A stretch of 64,000 nucleotides of DNA, from contig NZ_KZ559468.1 of the NCBI RefSeq assembly GCF_002850745.1, positions 62,001 to 126,000 on the forward strand, written 5' to 3'. The position numbers and the translations under genes were made by a program. Positions 18,909-63,108 of this stretch are shown here, one piece after another (position 1 is the stretch's first letter; every line of letters begins with the position of its first letter). The notes under the pieces were generated by a model, which was given only the letters and a program-made list of their open reading frames with translations, ran no database searches and was not told the DNA's origin. Source of the DNA: Nonomuraea indica (GTDB taxonomy: Bacteria > Actinomycetota > Actinomycetes > Streptosporangiales > Streptosporangiaceae).

Positions 18909-19895
18909 TCAGCCGAGGGCGGCGAGGAGCTCGCGCTCGCGCCCGGCGCTGAGGCCGGCGCGTCTCGGCCGGTCGAGGCCCTGCTCGCGCTCCCAGCGAA
19001 GCGTGTCGGCCAGCAGGTCGGCCCGGGACCGGTGGCGGAGCCCCGCGGCGCGCGCCGCCGACCCGCTGCGGGCCGAGAACCCCGTCCAGCCCGGGTCGGC
19101 CAGCCACATCGGCAGCGACTCGGGCCCCATGTACTCGGCCACGCCGTTGGCCAGCAGCCACGCCGGGTCGGCGGTGACCACGGGGCCCGTGTGACCGCCG
19201 GCGGCGCGCGACAGCTCGACCCACTCCCCGAACGGCACGACCGGGCCGACGGCGTCGTAGGCGCCGGTGATCCCCGACTCCGCGGCGTCGAGCAGCCAGG
19301 CGATGAGGTCGCGCACGTCGACGGCCTGCGTCGGCAGGGACGGCGCGTCGGGGACCAGCATCGGCCCCAGCGGGTCGCGCGCCGCACGGGCCGCCCAGTA
19401 ACCCGAACGCCCGCTGTGATCGCCCGGGCCGCCGATGAGCCCGGCCCGGGCGACGAGCAGGCGGTCACCGACGACCGCCGTCGTCGCCTGCTCGCAGGCC
19501 ACCTTCGCCTCGCCGTACACCGTGCGATCGACCTCGCCGCGGTCGGTCGGGGCGAGGAGCGGCGCGGACTCGTCGGCGTCCGGCGCGGCATGGGAGGCGT
19601 AGGCGCTGACGGAGGAGACATAGGTCCAGTGGCGGGCCCGGTCGCCCAGCGCGTCGAGCGCCGCCCGCACGAAGCCGGGCTGCCAGGACACCTCGATGAC
19701 CGCATCCCACTGGCGGCCGCGCAGCGGCGCGTACGCGGCGGGGTCACGCCGGTCGGCGGCCACGAGAGTGGCCCCCTCCGCGACCGCTCCGCTCTCGCCG
19801 CGAGCGAGGCACGTCACCCGATGGCCGCGCGAGAGCGCCTGCCGTGACGCCTCCCGCCCCACCCACGCCGTCCCGCCCAGAATCAAGATCTCCAT
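18909..19895 (-). CDS. NAD-dependent epimerase/dehydratase family protein
   Basis: A 328-residue extended short-chain dehydrogenase. The Rossmann fold opens at the N-terminus ([20 protein letters not shown]), with the SDR segments YVSSVSAYA and YGEAKVACE (Tyr-xxx-Lys as YGEAK). It belongs to the isoflavone-reductase/epimerase-like group rather than classical UDP-sugar epimerases. ATG 19895 starts right at the nucleotide-binding strand; a TTG four codons earlier is possible. It is the last gene of the leftward set that begins at 23623 and supplies the epimerase expected beside ECF41 sigma factors. Confidence 0.82.
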
Positions 19896-19946
19896 CCGGA
19901 CATTCAAGCACCGCGCGCGGGACGGCGTGGAGGTGACGGCGGACGT

Positions 19947-20372
19947 TCAGCCGGCGGTGCGGCCGGGGCGGGGCGACCACACCTGGGCCACCATGACGGC
20001 GCTCGCGCCGAACAGCGCCATGCCCAGAGGGACGTGGACGGCGAGGTCGCCGCTCCCTCCGAGCACGAACTGGACGCTGATCAGCACGAGGAGGATCGCG
20101 CTGACGGCCAGGTGGCGCGCCGATCCCCGGCCCGCCCGCCACACCAGGAACGCGGCGACGATCTGCAGCACCATCGCGACCGTGACGACGGGGCCGGTGG
20201 CATGGTGCAGTTCGCGGCTGCCCCCGTCGGACAGGAGCTGTCCGGCGGTGATGCCCTGTACCAGCAGCGTGGCGGACAGGAACGCGGTGCTCGCCTTCAT
20301 CAGGGCGAAGAACCGGGGGCGCGCGGGCCGCCCGCCATGAGCGGGGGAGGACGGCCTGGTCCGCGTCGACAC
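19947..20372 (-). CDS. small four-helix membrane protein
   Basis: A 141-residue protein with a basic Pro/Arg-rich N-terminus and four hydrophobic helices (starting about residues 28, 60, 85 and 115). Histidines sit at helix ends (RELHHATG, LAVHVPLG), a pattern seen in small DUF6220-like or DoxX-like membrane proteins; that assignment is tentative. GAGGAG lies 9 nt before the GTG start. It lies 56 bp beyond the P450 stop, in the same leftward unit. Confidence 0.65.
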   Translation of the reverse strand: MSTRTRPSSPAHGGRPARPRFFALMKASTAFLSATLLVQGITAGQLLSDGGSRELHHATGPVVTVAMVLQIVAAFLVWRAGRGSARHLAVSAILLVLISVQFVLGGSGDLAVHVPLGMALFGASAVMVAQVWSPRPGRTAG

Positions 20373-20428
20373 GGGATCACTCCTCGATGGTCGGGTGCCG
20401 TGAGCTTCCGGCTCCCGGGGCTGCCGGC

Positions 20429-21625
20429 TCACCACGTCACCCGCAACGTGCGCACGCCGTACACGAGGCTGAAGACGCGGAAGTCCACCGGCTCGGCCGG
20501 ATCGGCCAGGGCGAGGCCGGGGAAGCGCCGCAGCAGTGCCGGGAAGGCGATGCGCATCTCCATCCGCGCCAGCGGCGCCCCGAGGCAGTGGTGCACACCA
20601 TGGCCGAAGGCGACGTGACCGGCGGCTCCCCGGGTGATGTCGAGCGTCTCGGGATCGTCGACGAAGGCGGGGTCGCGGTTGGCGGCCGGAAACGAGCAGA
20701 ACACGAGCGAGCCCGCCGGGATGGCATGCCCGCCGACCTCCACATCCGTCGTGGTCGTGCGCGGCGGCAGCACCTGCACGACGGACAGCCAGCGCAGCAG
20801 TTCCTCGACGGCGGGCTCGACCAGCGCCGGATCGTCGCGGATCATCGCCGCCTGCTCCGGGTGCCGGAGCAGGGCCAGGGTGCCGAGGCCGAGCATGTTC
20901 GAGGTCGTCTCGTGCCCGGCCAGCAGCAGCAGTCCCGCGATGCCGATCAGCTCGTCGGTGCTGAGATCGTGGCCGTGCTCGCGCACCAGCATGCCGAGCA
21001 TGTCCTCGCCCGGCTCCGCCTGCGCGCGGGCCACCAGCCCGGCCATGTAGGCGCGATCCTCCCGTTGCGCCGCGACGCGCTGCTCCAACGGCAAGGACGT
21101 GTCCAGCAGGCGCACGGAACGCTCGTGGAACTCGGCGCGGTCGGCCTGCGGGACGCCCAGCAGCTCGCAGATCACCAGCGACGGCACCGGCAGCGCGAAG
21201 TGCTCCACCAGATCGGCCGGCTTGCCGGCCCGCTCCAGATCGTCCAGAGCCGTCCGGACGATCTCGGTGATGCGCGGCTCGAGCCTGCGCATCCGCCGTA
21301 CCGTGAACTCGGGGGTGAGCATCCGGCGCAACCGCGTGTGCTCGGGCGGGTCGAACCCGATCAGCTGCCCGGCCTGCATCGTGGCCAGCTCGTCGGCGTC
21401 CAGCTGCTCTGCTCCAGGGAACGGTGTCAGGGCGCTGCTGAACCGGGCCGGGTCCGCCAGCACCTGGCGGACGTCCTCGTAGCGGCAGACCACGTACGCG
21501 GGCACGCCGAACGGCGTCTTCACCTGCACCACGCCCTCGCTGTCGCGAGCCCGGGCCAGTTCCTCGACCGGGCTGAGCCCGTTCCGTCGCATGTGCAGCG
21601 GCAGTTCCGGCGCTTCGGTCATCAT
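20429..21625 (-). CDS. cytochrome P450
   Basis: A 398-residue bacterial class I P450. The I-helix has AGHETTSN, the K-helix ExxR is EELLR, and the heme ligand is C347 in FGHGVHHCLGAPLARMEM. The PERF-region reads DPAFVDDPETLDI. It oxidises a small substrate using a ferredoxin and reductase, neither of which is in the window. Its ATG overlaps the TGA of the upstream isochorismatase-like gene (ATGA), with GAGAGG as ribosome site, so the two are coupled. It resembles the CYP105/CYP107-type clan found in actinomycete tailoring, but the subfamily cannot be set by eye. Confidence 0.93.
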   Translation of the reverse strand: MMTEAPELPLHMRRNGLSPVEELARARDSEGVVQVKTPFGVPAYVVCRYEDVRQVLADPARFSSALTPFPGAEQLDADELATMQAGQLIGFDPPEHTRLRRMLTPEFTVRRMRRLEPRITEIVRTALDDLERAGKPADLVEHFALPVPSLVICELLGVPQADRAEFHERSVRLLDTSLPLEQRVAAQREDRAYMAGLVARAQAEPGEDMLGMLVREHGHDLSTDELIGIAGLLLLAGHETTSNMLGLGTLALLRHPEQAAMIRDDPALVEPAVEELLRWLSVVQVLPPRTTTTDVEVGGHAIPAGSLVFCSFPAANRDPAFVDDPETLDITRGAAGHVAFGHGVHHCLGAPLARMEMRIAFPALLRRFPGLALADPAEPVDFRVFSLVYGVRTLRVTW

Positions 21626-22221
21626 CTGTCCTCTCGAGGGGATGGTGTCTTTGCCAGCAAACCGATGATCTCGGCGGTGGAGCCGCTCTCGCCGAGGAGC
21701 GGGAAGATCCGTTCCACGCTGTGGCGATGCGCCTCCGCGTCCCGATCCGCCATGGCGTCCGTCACGAGCGTGACGTTGTAGCCGTGGTCGTAGGCGGCGC
21801 GGGCGGTGGACTCCACGCCGATGCTGGTGGCGATCCCGGCCAGCACCAGCTGTGTGACGCCGCGGCGGCGCAGCCGCAGGTCGAGGTCGGTGCCGTGGAA
21901 GGCGCTCCAGGTGCGCTTGGTCACGGTGATGTCATCGGGATGGCCGGCCAGGTCGTCGACGACGAGGTCCCAGCCCGCGGGGAGGGGGCCGGGCGGGCGC
22001 GTGATCTCGGTGCGCCCTGGCGCGGCGTCTGATCCGTCCGCGCCGGCCGTGAGCCGGACCAGGACCACCGGAGCACCGTGGTGGCGGAAGGCGTCAGCCA
22101 GTTCGACCGCACGGGCCACCACCTCGGCGCCGGTGCGGGGGGTGGTGGGGAGGCCGACGACGAGGTTCTGCAGATCGATGAGCACGAGTGCGGTCGCTGT
22201 GTCGATCGTGGTGACGGGCAT
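21622..22221 (-). CDS. isochorismatase-superfamily hydrolase lacking the nucleophilic Cys
   Basis: A 199-residue member of the cysteine-hydrolase/isochorismatase fold. The catalytic Asp is in LVLIDLQNLV and the Lys in TVTKRTWSAF. At the usual nucleophile site the family has Cys followed by Val; here the segment is GIATSIGVESTARAA, with Gly in place of Cys. True isochorismatases such as EntB and PhzD also lack that Cys, so hydrolysis by acid-base chemistry remains possible, whereas amidase activity is unlikely. AAGGGG lies 8 nt before the ATG. It overlaps the P450 gene downstream. Confidence 0.85.
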   Translation of the reverse strand: MPVTTIDTATALVLIDLQNLVVGLPTTPRTGAEVVARAVELADAFRHHGAPVVLVRLTAGADGSDAAPGRTEITRPPGPLPAGWDLVVDDLAGHPDDITVTKRTWSAFHGTDLDLRLRRRGVTQLVLAGIATSIGVESTARAAYDHGYNVTLVTDAMADRDAEAHRHSVERIFPLLGESGSTAEIIGLLAKTPSPREDR

Positions 22222-22264
22222 GGGTGAGCCCCTTTCTGAGGATGCGGTGACGAATCCGGGCGCG

Positions 22265-22315
22265 GCCCTTGTTCTCGAAGCTCCGTGATGCTCGGGAAGC
22301 TCCGGGAACAAGGGC
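22265..22315 (-). repeat. 10-bp inverted repeat between operon genes
   Basis: GCCCTTGTTC (22265-22274) is perfectly complementary to 22306-22315, with a 31-nt loop that itself contains two copies of GAAGCTCCG. It lies in the 116-bp space between the NmrA-like and isochorismatase-like genes. It could attenuate, stabilise or process the leftward transcript. Confidence 0.55.
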
Positions 22316-22337
22316 AGGGCCGTGCCGTACGACCGGC

Positions 22338-23090
22338 TCAGGGCTGGGTGTCGAGCCACTCCTGGAAGGTGGGTCCGGCGAGCCTGGCGTGCGGGCCGGG
22401 CAGGAAGGCGCCGTCGGCGGCGAGCTCGGCGTCCGGTATGCCGGACCCGTCGACGCCGACGACCTTGACGCCTCGGCGGGCGCCCAGGAGCGCGGCCGCC
22501 TCCGCCAGGGTCTCCCTGCGGGGGCCGGCGATCTCGGGGATCGGCGTTCCGGGAGCGTCGGCGCCGAGAGCCAGGTCGACCAGTTCCTCGGCCACGGCGC
22601 GGCAGGCCACGAGCTGGCTGGGCAGGGCCGGGACGTAGGCGACGTCGCCGGGCTGCCAGTCCAGGAGCTGGCCGACGAACTCGTGGAACTGCGCGGCCCG
22701 CAGGATGCGGACGGGGAGCGGGCCGGACAGGAGGACGTCCTCGTGCACCTTCTTGGCGGCGAGGAACCCGGCGGTGGCCCGGTCGGCGCCGATGATGGAC
22801 GCCACGGCGATCCGGGCGACCCCGGCCTGCTGCCCGTACTCGTGCAGATTGCGGGCCGACGTGCGGAAGAACTCCGTCGCCGCGTCCTGCTCGGAGGAGT
22901 GCCACGAGGCGACGTCGATGATGACATCCACTCCGGTGAGGGCGTCGGCGAGGCCCTCACCGGTGATGACGTCCACGCCGGTGGCTCGGGACATCGGTAC
23001 GGCCGGGTGCCCCCGCTCGGCCAGGACGTCGACGACGTGGCGTCCCAGCCGCCCGGTCGCTCCCGCCACCGCGAACTTGGTGGTGCTCAT
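22338..23090 (-). CDS. NAD(P)-binding NmrA-like oxidoreductase
   Basis: A 250-residue atypical short-chain dehydrogenase. The N-terminus is TKFAVAGATGRLGRHVVDVL (GxxGxxG), followed by ASIIGADRA and FLAAKKVHEDVLLSGP, the atypical SDR pattern without the Tyr-xxx-Lys of classical enzymes. This fits NmrA/HSCARG-type NAD(P)H sensors or quinone-reductase-like enzymes. GAAAGG lies upstream of the ATG. It follows the AhpD-like gene by 14 bp and is probably cotranscribed with it from the ECF41-type promoter. Confidence 0.85.
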   Translation of the reverse strand: MSTTKFAVAGATGRLGRHVVDVLAERGHPAVPMSRATGVDVITGEGLADALTGVDVIIDVASWHSSEQDAATEFFRTSARNLHEYGQQAGVARIAVASIIGADRATAGFLAAKKVHEDVLLSGPLPVRILRAAQFHEFVGQLLDWQPGDVAYVPALPSQLVACRAVAEELVDLALGADAPGTPIPEIAGPRRETLAEAAALLGARRGVKVVGVDGSGIPDAELAADGAFLPGPHARLAGPTFQEWLDTQP

Positions 23091-23104
23091 GCTGTACGCC
23101 TTTC

Positions 23105-23623
23105 TCAGTGGCTGTAGTTCTGGCCGGGGGGCATGCCGGGGATCGGCTTGGCGATGAGGGCGGCGGGGGTGAAGAAGCCGATGTGGGCGATCGCCATGAT
23201 GAGGTGCCAGAGCGCCTTGTCGTCGTAGTGCTCCGACGCCCTGGCGTACAGCTCGTCGGGGACGCGTTCACCGGACGGGTTCGGGGTCAGGACGGCCTCC
23301 ACGAGCTCCAGCGCGACCCGTTCGGGCTCGGTGAAGTAGGTGGCGTCCCGCCAGGTGGCCACGGCGGTGATGCGCTCCTCCGATTCCCCGGCCTGGCGGA
23401 GGTTCCTGGTCTCCCGGATGGTGAAGTACGTGCTGCCGAGGAGCTGCCCCGCGCGAAGCTGCAGCAGGTGGATGGTGACCTGCGGAATCAAGCCGCTGCT
23501 CATGACCTTGTGCAGGCCCTCGGCGACCACCGCCATCTCGGGGACGAAGGAGAGGGGGTTGGGCATGCGCGACCGCGGGTTCTCCTGCTCGGTCGCCGTG
23601 TCGGTCGTCGCGGGTGTGGACAT
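23105..23623 (-). CDS. AhpD/carboxymuconolactone decarboxylase-like protein without redox cysteines
   Basis: A 172-residue all-helical protein aligned by eye with the CMD/AhpD proteins that accompany ECF41 sigma factors: LLQLRAGQLLG, then GESEERITAVATWRDATYFT, ERVALELVEAVL and VPDELYARASEHY. The usual redox segment GCxYCxxxH is replaced by GSTYFTIRE, so both cysteines and the histidine are absent. Peroxidase-type redox activity is therefore unlikely; a structural or ligand-sensing role is possible. AAGGAG lies 8 nt upstream of the ATG. It is the first gene of the leftward operon, divergent from the sigma factor. Confidence 0.75.
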   Translation of the reverse strand: MSTPATTDTATEQENPRSRMPNPLSFVPEMAVVAEGLHKVMSSGLIPQVTIHLLQLRAGQLLGSTYFTIRETRNLRQAGESEERITAVATWRDATYFTEPERVALELVEAVLTPNPSGERVPDELYARASEHYDDKALWHLIMAIAHIGFFTPAALIAKPIPGMPPGQNYSH

Positions 23624-23669
23624 GGTGGGGGTCTCCTTCTCAACTGGTGATGCGTTCTGACGACCACGA

Positions 23670-23696
23670 GACGTCGGCGCCCCGATCCCCGTAACA
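23670..23696 (-). promoter_or_regulatory. ECF41-type promoter for the leftward operon
   Basis: On the minus strand TGTTACG (23696-23690) is followed by 16 bases and then CGTC (23673-23670). This matches in form the ECF41 motif I recall (TGTCACA then CGTC). The start codon lies 46 nt downstream. The same motif with the same spacing drives the sigma gene. Confidence 0.75.
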
Positions 23697-23704
23697 GCGC
23701 GGCC

Positions 23705-23724
23705 ATGTGACATAGACCACGTGG
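23705..23724. promoter_or_regulatory. palindromic region between the two ECF41-type promoters
   Basis: TGTGACATAGACCAC followed by GTGG sits midway between the two sigma promoters. It contains the 8-bp palindrome CCACGTGG (23717-23724) and a TGTGA-N6-CCAC arrangement similar to Crp-family sites and to the elements at 57312 and 57426. Candidate second regulator site. Confidence 0.4.
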
Positions 23725-23730
23725 CGTGGG

Positions 23731-23757
23731 TGTTACGGAGCGGCGGGGACCGGCGTC
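23731..23757 (+). promoter_or_regulatory. ECF41-type promoter of the sigma factor gene
   Basis: TGTTACG (23731-23737), 16 bases, then CGTC (23754-23757), identical in both boxes and spacing to the opposing promoter at 23670-23696. The sigma gene starts at 23802, so it is probably autoregulated. Confidence 0.75.
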
Positions 23758-23801
23758 ATGTGCGTGTGGCAGCGTTGAGACCGAGTAGGCGGGAAGCAGG
23801 C

Positions 23802-24767
23802 ATGAACGAAGGCAGCGAACCAGCGACGGACCGGGCCGGGTCGCCCGATCGGGTCGGTCGCGTCGACTCGGTGGACTCGGTGGACTCGGTGGAGTCCGCC
23901 ACCCAGGCGTTCGTCGGCTACCGCAACCTGCTGTTCACCGTCGCCTACGAGATGCTCGGATCGGCCGCCGACGCCGAGGACGTCCTGCAGGAGACCTGGC
24001 TGCGTTGGGTGGACGTCGATCACGCCACCGTGCGGGAGCAGCGTGCCTACCTGGTGCGGATCGTCACCCGGCAGGCGCTGGACCGGCTGCGCGCGCTCGG
24101 CCGGCGTAAGGAGTCCTACGTCGGGCCGTGGCTGCCCGAGCCGTTGCTGACCACGCCGGACGTGGCCGAGGACGTGGAGCTCGCCGAGAGCGTCTCGATG
24201 GCGATGCTGCTGGTGCTGGAGACGCTCCAGCCGGTCGAGCGGGCGGTGTTCGTGCTGCGCGAGGTGTTCTCGCTGGACTACGACGAGATCGCCGACGCCG
24301 TCGACAAGAGCCCGGCCGCGGTACGCCAGCTCGCCTACCGGGCGCGGGCGCACGTGGCCGCCCGCCGGCCCCGTGGCATCACGTCCCCGGCCGAGACCCG
24401 AGCCGTGCTCGAGGCCTTCCAGCGAGCGGTGGAGACCGGCGAGTTGCAGAGCCTGCTCGACGTCCTCGCACCGGACGTCGTCTACCTGAGCGACGGCGGC
24501 GGAGTCAGGCATGCCCTGCTGCGGCCCGTTGTGGGGGTCGACAAGGTGGCCCGTCTGCTGGCCACCGGTTGGTGGAAGCGTGGCGGGAAAAGGTCGGTCG
24601 AGCTGGTTCAGATCAACGGTGGTCCTGGGCTGCTCGTACGAGTCGACGGGGAGATCGACGGAGTGGTGGCGGTGCGCGTGGAGAACGGCTACGTCACCGG
24701 CGCCTACTACGTGCGCAATCCCGAGAAGCTGTCGTGGGTGGAGCGGGAGACCGCCGTGACCCGCTGA
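23802..24767 (+). CDS. ECF41-family RNA polymerase sigma factor with C-terminal regulatory domain
   Basis: A 321-residue sigma factor. Region 2 covers about residues 35-100 (YRNLLFTVAYEMLGSAADAE, then DVLQETWLRW) and region 4 about 130-190 (VERAVFVLREVFSLDYDEIA). The linker contains WLPEP (110-114), and the fused SnoaL-like C-terminal domain carries DGGG (about 229-232) and NPEKL near the end; these three motifs mark ECF41 factors, which use the C-terminal domain in place of an anti-sigma factor. The N-terminus has a short VDS repeat. ATG 23802 follows a weak purine-rich site. Targets are the divergent promoter pair and operon. Confidence 0.93.
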   Translation: MNEGSEPATDRAGSPDRVGRVDSVDSVDSVESATQAFVGYRNLLFTVAYEMLGSAADAEDVLQETWLRWVDVDHATVREQRAYLVRIVTRQALDRLRALGRRKESYVGPWLPEPLLTTPDVAEDVELAESVSMAMLLVLETLQPVERAVFVLREVFSLDYDEIADAVDKSPAAVRQLAYRARAHVAARRPRGITSPAETRAVLEAFQRAVETGELQSLLDVLAPDVVYLSDGGGVRHALLRPVVGVDKVARLLATGWWKRGGKRSVELVQINGGPGLLVRVDGEIDGVVAVRVENGYVTGAYYVRNPEKLSWVERETAVTR

Positions 24768-61745: not shown

Positions 61746-63108
61746 CGGGCAGCGTCAAGGTCACCTCCAGCCCGTGCGGCCGGGCGGCCGACAGCGTCAT
61801 GGAGCCGCCGCTGCGCTCGGCCAGGGTCCGCGTGATCGCCAGGCCGAGGCCCGTGCCCGGCACGTTCTGGTGGCGCGGGCTGCGCCAGAACCTGTCGCCC
61901 GCGCGGGCCAGCTCGTCGCCGGTCAGGCCCGGACCCCCGTCGCGGACCACGACGCGCACCTCCTCGCCGAGGCGGCTGGCCGTCACCTCCACCGGGCGGC
62001 CCTGCCCGAACTTCAGCGCGTTGTCGAGCAGGGCGTCCAGGGCGTGGTCGAGCAGGTCGGGCACCCCGGTGACGGTCAGCCCCTCCGGCACGTCCACCGT
62101 CAGCGGCGTCGCCGAGCTGTCGTAGGCGGCCCGCCACGCCAGCGCCCGCCTGCGCACCGCGGCCGCCACGTCGATCGGGCCGGGCGGCTCGTGCGCGGCC
62201 TCCGCGCGGGCGAGCTGCAGCAGCGCGTCCACGCTCTCGCCCAGCCGGTCGGCCTCCTCCAGGGCGAGCCGCAGCTCCTCGCGACCGTGCGGGTCGAGGA
62301 CGGTGGACTCGGCGTTCTCCACCCGCAGCCGCAGCGCCGTCAGCGGGTTGCGGAGCTGGTGGGAGGCCTGGGCGACGAACGCCCGCTGCTTCAGCACGGC
62401 GGCGGCGACGCCGTCGGCCATCGCGTTGAAGCTCGCCGCCAGCCGCCGCAGCTCCGGCGGCCCGGTCCGGTCGGACACGTGCGCGGCGTGCCGGCCGGAC
62501 CCCACGGCGTGCGCCGCCTCGTCGAGCTCGTGCACCGGGCGCAGCACCCACCGCACCACCGGCACCGCCACCGCCAGCGCCACGACGAGCAGCGCCACCA
62601 GGCCGCCGAGGGCGAGGACGGCCAGCCGCGCGGCGACCTCCTCCCGCGCCCGGTCCGTCGGCGTGATCGTCACGGCCGCGCCGAGCACCCGCCCGTCGCG
62701 CACCACCGGCTCGACCACCACGTACGGCCGCTCGTCCCACGGCCACAGCACGTGCGGCCGCTGCGGCGGCCGCCCGGCGAGCCCGCGCAGCAGGGGGACG
62801 CGCACCCCCTCCTGCTCGGGGGACATCCCCTCGCGGGACGAGGCGACCACCTGCCCGTCGGAGTTCACCACCATCACCGGCGTGTCGTACAGCTCGTCGT
62901 AGCGCAGCAGGTCGGCCGTCAGCCGGCGGGTCCGGCCGGTGGACAGCGCCGCCTCCGCCACGTCGGCGAACCGGGCGGTGTCGTCGGCCCGGCTGATGAA
63001 CAGCTCCTGCGACGCCTGGTCGGCCCCCGCCACCGCCAGCGGCAGCCCGAGCGCCGCCACCAGGCCGGCGACCAGGCCGATCACGATCACGAGCAGACGT
63101 CTGCGCAC
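61681..63108 (-). CDS. HAMP-HisKA sensor histidine kinase
   Basis: A 475-residue membrane kinase. TM1 (RRRLLVIVIGLVAGLVAALG) is followed by an extracellular sensor of about 120 residues, TM2 at about 155-178, HAMP, and HisKA with H250 in ASHQLRNPLTALRLRVENAE. The HATPase has DNALKFG, RDGGPGL and GTGLGLAI. The GTG start follows GGGAGG. The last 20 residues (Pro/Ala/Ser-rich) run into the convergent TAXI gene. As a classical HisKA enzyme it is the better cognate for the OmpR-type regulator at 60107. Confidence 0.93.
   Translation of the reverse strand: MRRRLLVIVIGLVAGLVAALGLPLAVAGADQASQELFISRADDTARFADVAEAALSTGRTRRLTADLLRYDELYDTPVMVVNSDGQVVASSREGMSPEQEGVRVPLLRGLAGRPPQRPHVLWPWDERPYVVVEPVVRDGRVLGAAVTITPTDRAREEVAARLAVLALGGLVALLVVALAVAVPVVRWVLRPVHELDEAAHAVGSGRHAAHVSDRTGPPELRRLAASFNAMADGVAAAVLKQRAFVAQASHQLRNPLTALRLRVENAESTVLDPHGREELRLALEEADRLGESVDALLQLARAEAAHEPPGPIDVAAAVRRRALAWRAAYDSSATPLTVDVPEGLTVTGVPDLLDHALDALLDNALKFGQGRPVEVTASRLGEEVRVVVRDGGPGLTGDELARAGDRFWRSPRHQNVPGTGLGLAITRTLAERSGGSMTLSAARPHGLEVTLTLPVSGAPSDTSAPPPRAAPAGTS

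Follow-up and report, generated by a model that had tools for sequence, protein, structure and literature searches.

A Crp-like palindrome midway between the divergent promoters of an ECF41 sigma factor locus in Nonomuraea indica: a candidate second input

Introduction

ECF41 sigma factors, a group of extracytoplasmic function (ECF) sigma factors, are defined by a WLPEP linker motif together with a C-terminal extension, some 100 amino acids long, that has conserved motifs (Wecke 2012, PMC3426412). That study describes 55 loci in which the sigma gene lies divergently to a gene for a carboxymuconolactone decarboxylase (CMD), an oxidoreductase or an epimerase (COE). The ECF41 promoter consensus given there is TGTCACA-N16±1-CGTC, and the motif was found before the sigma gene in 36 of the loci and before the COE gene in 41. 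Here we analyse a locus of this type from Nonomuraea indica (assembly GCF_002850745.1), contained in positions 62,001 to 126,000 of contig NZ_KZ559468.1; this whole stretch of 64,000 nucleotides is called the window, and plain coordinates refer to it. Exactly midway between the -35 boxes of its two ECF41-type promoters lies a conserved Crp-like palindrome. We read the locus as an ECF41 switch that regulates itself and probably receives a second, Crp-type input at a shared operator, and put the probability of this reading at about 0.68.

What triggers ECF41 factors was left open by Wecke and colleagues, since the two factors they tested gave no reproducible phenotype and no target beyond the CMD transcript (PMC3426412). 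The same source mentions that a sigJ mutant was slightly sensitive to H2O2. An ECF41 factor of Azospirillum has been linked to motility, and ECF41 reviews assign the primary signal to the C-terminal extension. As for the second regulator, the consensus of Streptomyces Crp is GTG(N)6GNCAC and that of Corynebacterium GlxR is GTG(N)8CAC (PMC10033298). Among the publications found to name both ECF41 and Crp, none connected the two, at least one of the terms occurring only in the reference lists, and the main text of PMC3426412 contains 0 occurrences of either "Crp" or "palindrom".

The sigma factor and its divergent promoters

The following elements form the core of the locus (the 48-row alignment is defined below).

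23802 to 24767, plus strand: ECF41 sigma factor of 321 amino acids, with Tyr179 and Asp94 (TIGR02957, Pfam sigma regions r2 and r4_2, match to SigJ 5xe7)
23731 to 23757, plus strand: predicted sigma promoter TGTTACG-N16-CGTC (motif unique to the gap, kept in the 48-row alignment)
23707 to 23720, minus strand: predicted Crp-like operator GTG-GTCTAT-GTCAC, centre 23713.5 (conservation in 48 rows and fit to the Crp consensus)
23670 to 23696, minus strand: predicted CMD promoter TGTTACG-N16-CGTC (motif unique to the gap, kept in the 48-row alignment)
23105 to 23623, minus strand: CMD/AhpD-fold protein of 172 amino acids, no cysteine (PF02627, structure model, PA0269 as best PDB match)

The sigma protein is built of sigma2, sigma4 and a C-terminal extension. 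It scores 365.2 bits (cut-off 323.25) against TIGR02957 (SigX4), a profile that we take to be equivalent to ECF41, and GPWLPEP, DGGG and NPEKL are all present in its translation, so that the ECF41 identity proposed in an original prediction from the DNA letters is upheld. SigJ of M. tuberculosis (5xe7) aligns with residues 35-311 at 155.6 bits; no SnoaL Pfam domain was detected in the sigma factor at E ≤ 0.001, though the SigJ alignment extends through residue 311. The neighbourhood is that of an ECF41 locus, with divergent CMD and NmrA-like genes; in a scan of nine neighbours, one of them matching no family whatever, none belonged to an anti-sigma family. By analogy with ECF41 factors described so far, the activity of this sigma factor would be controlled through its C-terminal extension.

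The likely ATG codons, both inside listed open reading frames, stand at 23623 for the CMD gene and at 23802 for the sigma gene. The gap between them is 178 bp, slightly less than the 180 bp first given for the divergent region, whose boxes and spacing are indeed identical in both directions. TGTTACG-N16-CGTC occurs exactly twice in the genome (8,287,624 bases, 58 contigs), at the two positions originally claimed, both in the sigma-CMD gap, and the reversed pattern occurs 0 times. In 100 shuffles of the window, the pattern with N15-17 had a mean of 0.03 matches and no shuffle had two. Both the CGTC -10 box and the N16 spacer agree with the ECF41 consensus, whereas the -35 box TGTTACG differs from TGTCACA by two letters. 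When positions are set by sigma-H numbering, transcription would start at 23766 (G) for the sigma gene, 36 nucleotides before its ATG, and at 23661 (G) for the CMD gene, 38 nucleotides before its ATG.

A CMD-based scan yielded 79 loci in named genomes, mainly of Nonomuraea and its kin and also of Amycolatopsis, Saccharothrix, Actinomadura and others. The gap alignment of 48 rows consists of the window and the 47 of these loci whose divergent sigma match exceeds 200 bits and is 60% identical or more; the remaining 32 were excluded for want of such a match. The divergent promoter pair is conserved in the 47 related loci, and each promoter keeps N16 in 47 of the 48 rows. The -10 boxes are CGTC on both sides in 31 rows, GATC on both sides in 11, GATC with GGTC in 4, CATC on both sides in 1 and unreadable in 1; thus, both sides are the same in 43 rows, half-changed in 4 and unread in 1. 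The fourth -35 letter is T in both promoters in 24 rows and C in both in 22, which makes 46 of 48 rows in agreement; in the other 2 the CMD promoter has C and the sigma promoter T. Since both promoters keep N16 and their letters mostly change jointly, we predict, along with the autoregulation already proposed, that the sigma factor also controls the divergent CMD gene. The refuting condition named earlier, that close relatives sharing the gene order would lack the motif, did not hold: the pair is retained, and its letters vary by lineage in step with the sigma factor.

A conserved palindrome between the promoters

The palindrome at 23707-23720, which in the alignment is conserved to the same degree as the promoters, had been overlooked by the original prediction. 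Its centre, 23713.5, is the exact midpoint of the -35 box edges 23696 and 23731 and lies at predicted position -52.5 from both transcription starts. GTG-N8-CAC is found in 45 of the 48 rows and GTG-N6-GNCAC in 43. Of the 16 genera (the own genome taken as one), 15 have the palindrome in at least one row; the exception is Glycomyces, represented by one row. The seven fixed palindrome columns average 1.91 bits, compared with 1.05 bits for the other 27 columns of the spacer. The site conforms to the GTG(N)6GNCAC operator of Crp-regulated promoters.

A Crp orthologue is encoded in the same genome. Its product (L113:1054-1731) is close to M. tuberculosis CRP (297.8 bits to 3d0s), with an identical recognition-helix stretch. 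Shortly upstream of this crp gene, at L113:1019-1032, we noticed a box of the same type, GTGCGGTGCGTCAC, possibly a site of Crp autoregulation.

We propose that the C-terminal extension, sensing a specific primary signal, would release the sigma factor, which would then recognise the two matched promoters that face away from each other, one in front of its own gene and one in front of the CMD/NmrA-like pair. Crp, probably with cyclic AMP (cAMP), might gate or boost both promoters from the shared operator. We suggest this because a single operator midway, with its centre at -52.5 from each predicted start, would let one bound dimer face both polymerases alike. Activation is the likelier sign of a Crp effect, since the site adjoins the -35 boxes and does not overlap them.

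Recurrence of the composite promoter

We scanned 296 genomes of the class for the composite pattern GTG-N8-CAC, N10-11, TGTYACR, N17, RTC. There were 48 matches in 33 genomes and none for the reversed pattern; as seven divergent pairs count twice, the matches correspond to 41 distinct sites, 4 of them in the own genome. With the spacing shifted by 5 bp (N15-16), 6 matches in 6 genomes were obtained (reversed: 4), these six control sites being counted as pattern matches only, without their neighbouring genes. Thirty of the 48 composite matches were fetched as loci of about 3 kb and 18 were left out. An ECF41-like gene was present in 19 of the 30 (tblastn with the own paralogues, E ≤ 1e-6), partial in one of them (L138), and the 18 loci with a complete gene belong to six families of the class (codes f1, f4, f17, f18, f19 and f37).

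The own genome holds further examples. A paralogue 72% identical to the window sigma factor (L085), which has His179 and Lys94, is preceded by TGTCACA-N16-GGTC in both directions with a Crp-like box midway. Another, L082, has a Crp-like box and a sigma promoter at the same distance of 17.5 bp between box and sigma -35 as in L085 and in the window locus. The divergent partner of L085 (L118:4672-6181, minus strand, own-genome contig C1) resembles, by eye, a FAD-linked oxidase and not a CMD. A fourth composite site of the own genome, C5:64851-64902, is not near any paralogue over the family cut-off.

We lean, by a modest margin, towards the existence of a recurrent class of composite ECF41 promoters in actinomycetes, in which a Crp operator would be fixed 10-11 bp upstream of the -35 box and often shared divergently. 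Part of the ECF41 group would then be wired to cAMP signalling, and single-residue changes in sigma would allow paralogues to recognise differing letters within a common promoter frame.

Sigma residues and promoter letters

Comparison of the 48 aligned sigma sequences with their promoters revealed a close correspondence at residue 179, which is Tyr in 26 of 26 rows with T in the sigma promoter (all 24 T/T rows and both mixed ones) and His in 22 of 22 rows with C (all the C/C rows). Among the 321 sigma columns, 179 alone fully separates the 24 T/T rows from the 22 C/C rows. The residue sits in the recognition helix of region 4, beside an Arg that aligns, by eye, with R186 of sigma-H; for this we used a sigma-H helix sequence that we assume to be correct. 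R186 of sigma-H is reported to contact G-34. Since residue 179 co-varies with the fourth -35 letter, the data support the view, voiced in the original prediction, that the TGTTAC box is a specificity variant, one that would be matched by Tyr179.

On a tree built without six of the variable columns, parsimony places 4 letter changes in each promoter (48 rows) and 5 changes of residue 179 (62 rows). All three well-supported independent pairs are concordant for sigma promoter letter and residue 179, as are 1.8 of 2 pairs for the CMD promoter letter. None of the 18 ECF41-like loci that the composite pattern found in other genomes has Tyr179, and every -35 match read in them has C; the partial gene of L138 was excluded from this comparison. 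At residue 94, Asp accompanies CGTC in 31 of 31 rows, and the other 17 rows have Lys (16) or Met (1).

In the own genome, seven SigX4 matches pass the cut-off, and another seven score lower but span most of the profile. Residue 179 is Y, R, V, H, L or S among these matches, and the differences suggest that the paralogues may be insulated from each other.

The CMD protein and the leftward genes

The predicted structure of the CMD protein, for which 38 of the available CMD sequences were used, has a mean pLDDT of 86.5 and the fold of PA0269. Relative to the PA0269-type CMD/AhpD structures (2ijc, 2o4d, 7xw1), the fold is shared (TM 0.68-0.74 by query) at 27-28% identity, while the active-site motif is not. 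GSTYF of the window protein aligns with GCAYC, with Ser64 and Phe67 where the CxxC cysteines stand and Glu71 at the place of the His that comes next. The label AhpD/CMD-like given earlier is right as to PF02627 and the fold, but a normal AhpD-type enzyme it is not, having no cysteine. Neither CxxC position is Cys in any of the 76 readable loci of the 79 (3 unread), a set biased by the fact that the scan was partly seeded with this very segment. All ECF41-linked CMDs are said to have CxxC in Wecke 2012 (PMC3426412), which makes the window CMD a distinct kind of ECF41 target protein. Its lack of cysteine shows that some, at least, of the ECF41 targets cannot be CxxC-dependent peroxidases.

A second set of CMDs without CxxC, with Tyr-His in place of Tyr-Phe, comprises 25 loci (L050-L072, L076, L079). 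In 18 of them there is a sigma gene 33-43% identical to the window sigma, and the strict promoter pattern matches only once in their gaps, in L066.

Leftward from the CMD gene lie the following features.

22338 to 23090, minus strand: NmrA-like NAD(P)-binding protein, separated from CMD by 14 bp (PF13460)
22265 to 22315, minus strand: long RNA hairpin after the NmrA-like gene (124-nucleotide fold, -58 kcal/mol, z -3.61)
21622 to 22221, minus strand: isochorismatase-family hydrolase, variable passenger (PF00857; 8 of 44 loci)
20429 to 21625, minus strand: cytochrome P450, variable passenger, overlapping the isochorismatase gene by 4 bases (PF00067; 12 of 44 loci)
19947 to 20435, minus strand: small membrane-like protein, start uncertain, variable passenger (no Pfam or NCBIfam match; 8 of 44 loci)
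18909 to 19895, minus strand: NAD-dependent epimerase, doubtful member of the unit (PF01370; 0 of 79 related loci)

The NmrA-like gene follows CMD in 50 of the 79 loci, 45 of which have a divergent sigma more than 60% identical. Passengers were counted in those 44 loci whose sequence extends 4 kb or more past the NmrA-like gene. The hairpin, with arms GCCCTTGTTC... and no T run, may be a transcript end or a processing point; its exact arm with CCTTGT stands at the corresponding place in 12 of 49 relatives examined. Because of the locus counts and the hairpin, we regard the sigma gene, the two promoters, the CMD gene and the NmrA-like gene as the constant unit and the rest as a variable tail. 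The original prediction had seen here a complete CMD/oxidoreductase/epimerase set; COE in fact denotes any one of three gene kinds, an NmrA-type gene counting as epimerase (PMC3426412).

Alternative explanations

The locus might be an ordinary divergent ECF41 locus whose palindrome is bound by a factor other than Crp, such as another Crp/Fnr protein or a local repressor. GTG-N8-CAC is a half-site pattern of the whole family, and the genome encodes 10 HTH_Crp_2 matches over the cut-off, three of them strong. We nevertheless consider this unlikely: the palindrome agrees with the Crp/GlxR consensus published for actinobacteria (PMC10033298), the best Crp candidate carries the recognition-helix stretch of M. 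tuberculosis CRP, and the layout is found again next to ECF41-like genes in six of the class's families, a spread that speaks for a regulator conserved widely. Far less probable still is that the palindrome, instead of being a Crp site, holds in its right half a third ECF41 -35 box of canonical form, directed towards CMD. The window does have ATGTCACATGG, a perfect TGTCACA, but at N16 there is GGGA instead of CGTC or GATC, the first T is kept in just 62% of rows as against 96-100% for the GTG half, and the centre of the palindrome coincides with the midpoint of the two real boxes. Lacking a -10 box and with its first T poorly conserved, the central TGTCACA was rejected as a third promoter.

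Direct control by sigma of a six-gene operon from CMD to the epimerase, as first predicted, is doubtful, if slightly less so than a binder other than Crp. All the genes are co-directional, the isochorismatase and P450 genes overlap, and some relatives likewise have isochorismatase, P450 and membrane genes next to CMD-nmrA. Against this stand the absence of the epimerase gene from all 79 related loci, the presence of the other three in only 8 to 12 of 44, and the strong hairpin after the NmrA-like gene; as a conserved unit, the six-gene regulon was rejected. It is also improbable that TGTTAC and TGTCAC reflect neutral drift, with Tyr/His179 a mere lineage marker devoid of a specificity role. 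The few independent changes and two Tyr179 loci with mixed promoters would suit drift, whereas the unique separation of both sets by column 179 and its place in the recognition helix, next to the counterpart of the G-34-contacting Arg, speak for specificity.

Several observations weigh against our interpretation of the locus and its extensions. The bare palindrome pattern is common, with 25 occurrences in the window where 20.8 are expected; its abundance, being about chance level, was dropped as proof, and because the pattern is not rare, position and conservation constitute the evidence. The predicted position -52.5 differs from both the class I and the class II position of E. coli Crp, and other Crp/Fnr proteins encoded in the genome (e.g. 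L112 and L114) could bind the palindrome. The composite pattern is absent from 263 of the 296 class genomes and from 11 of the 13 own-genome paralogues examined (only L082 and L085 have it), and 11 of the 30 fetched composite loci have no ECF41-like gene within about 3 kb. As for the fourth -35 letter in the CMD and sigma promoters, 1.8 of 3 independent pairs agree and 1.2 do not differ. Independent changes are so few that no pair count can reach significance, and statistical proof of co-variation on the tree was dropped for this reason. L011 and L077 combine Tyr179 with C in the CMD -35 box, so that Tyr179 appears to tolerate both T and C. In the wider set, Thr94 and Ser94 also occur with CGTC, which breaks the pairing of residue 94 with the -10 box; as columns 79 and 88 moreover separate the -10 sets of the 48 rows equally well, a single-residue code for this box was abandoned.

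Discussion

A Crp-type site conserved at a fixed place predicts that some actinomycete ECF41 circuits answer to cAMP or carbon state besides their own sensor. The midway site thereby gives a lead on possible control of ECF41 switches. The sigma/promoter pairs, with Tyr or His179 accompanying T or C at the fourth -35 letter, form a natural set for reading the ECF specificity code.

With the ECF41 loci of Wecke 2012 (PMC3426412) our locus shares the WLPEP linker, the C-terminal extension, two-sided promoters, a CMD target, N16 and CGTC. It differs from them in the -35 box TGTTACG instead of TGTCACA, in a CMD without CxxC and in the Crp-like operator midway. M. tuberculosis SigJ (5xe7) is itself an ECF41 factor, and the comparison with it concerns protein likeness over residues 35-311. 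The type of palindrome is common to the Streptomyces Crp and Corynebacterium GlxR sites given in PMC10033298; in contrast to these, the window palindrome, a candidate operator, keeps a constant spacing to the ECF-sigma promoters on its two sides. A divergent ECF41 pair is thus of a kind already known, and the palindrome midway between its -35 boxes is the new element.

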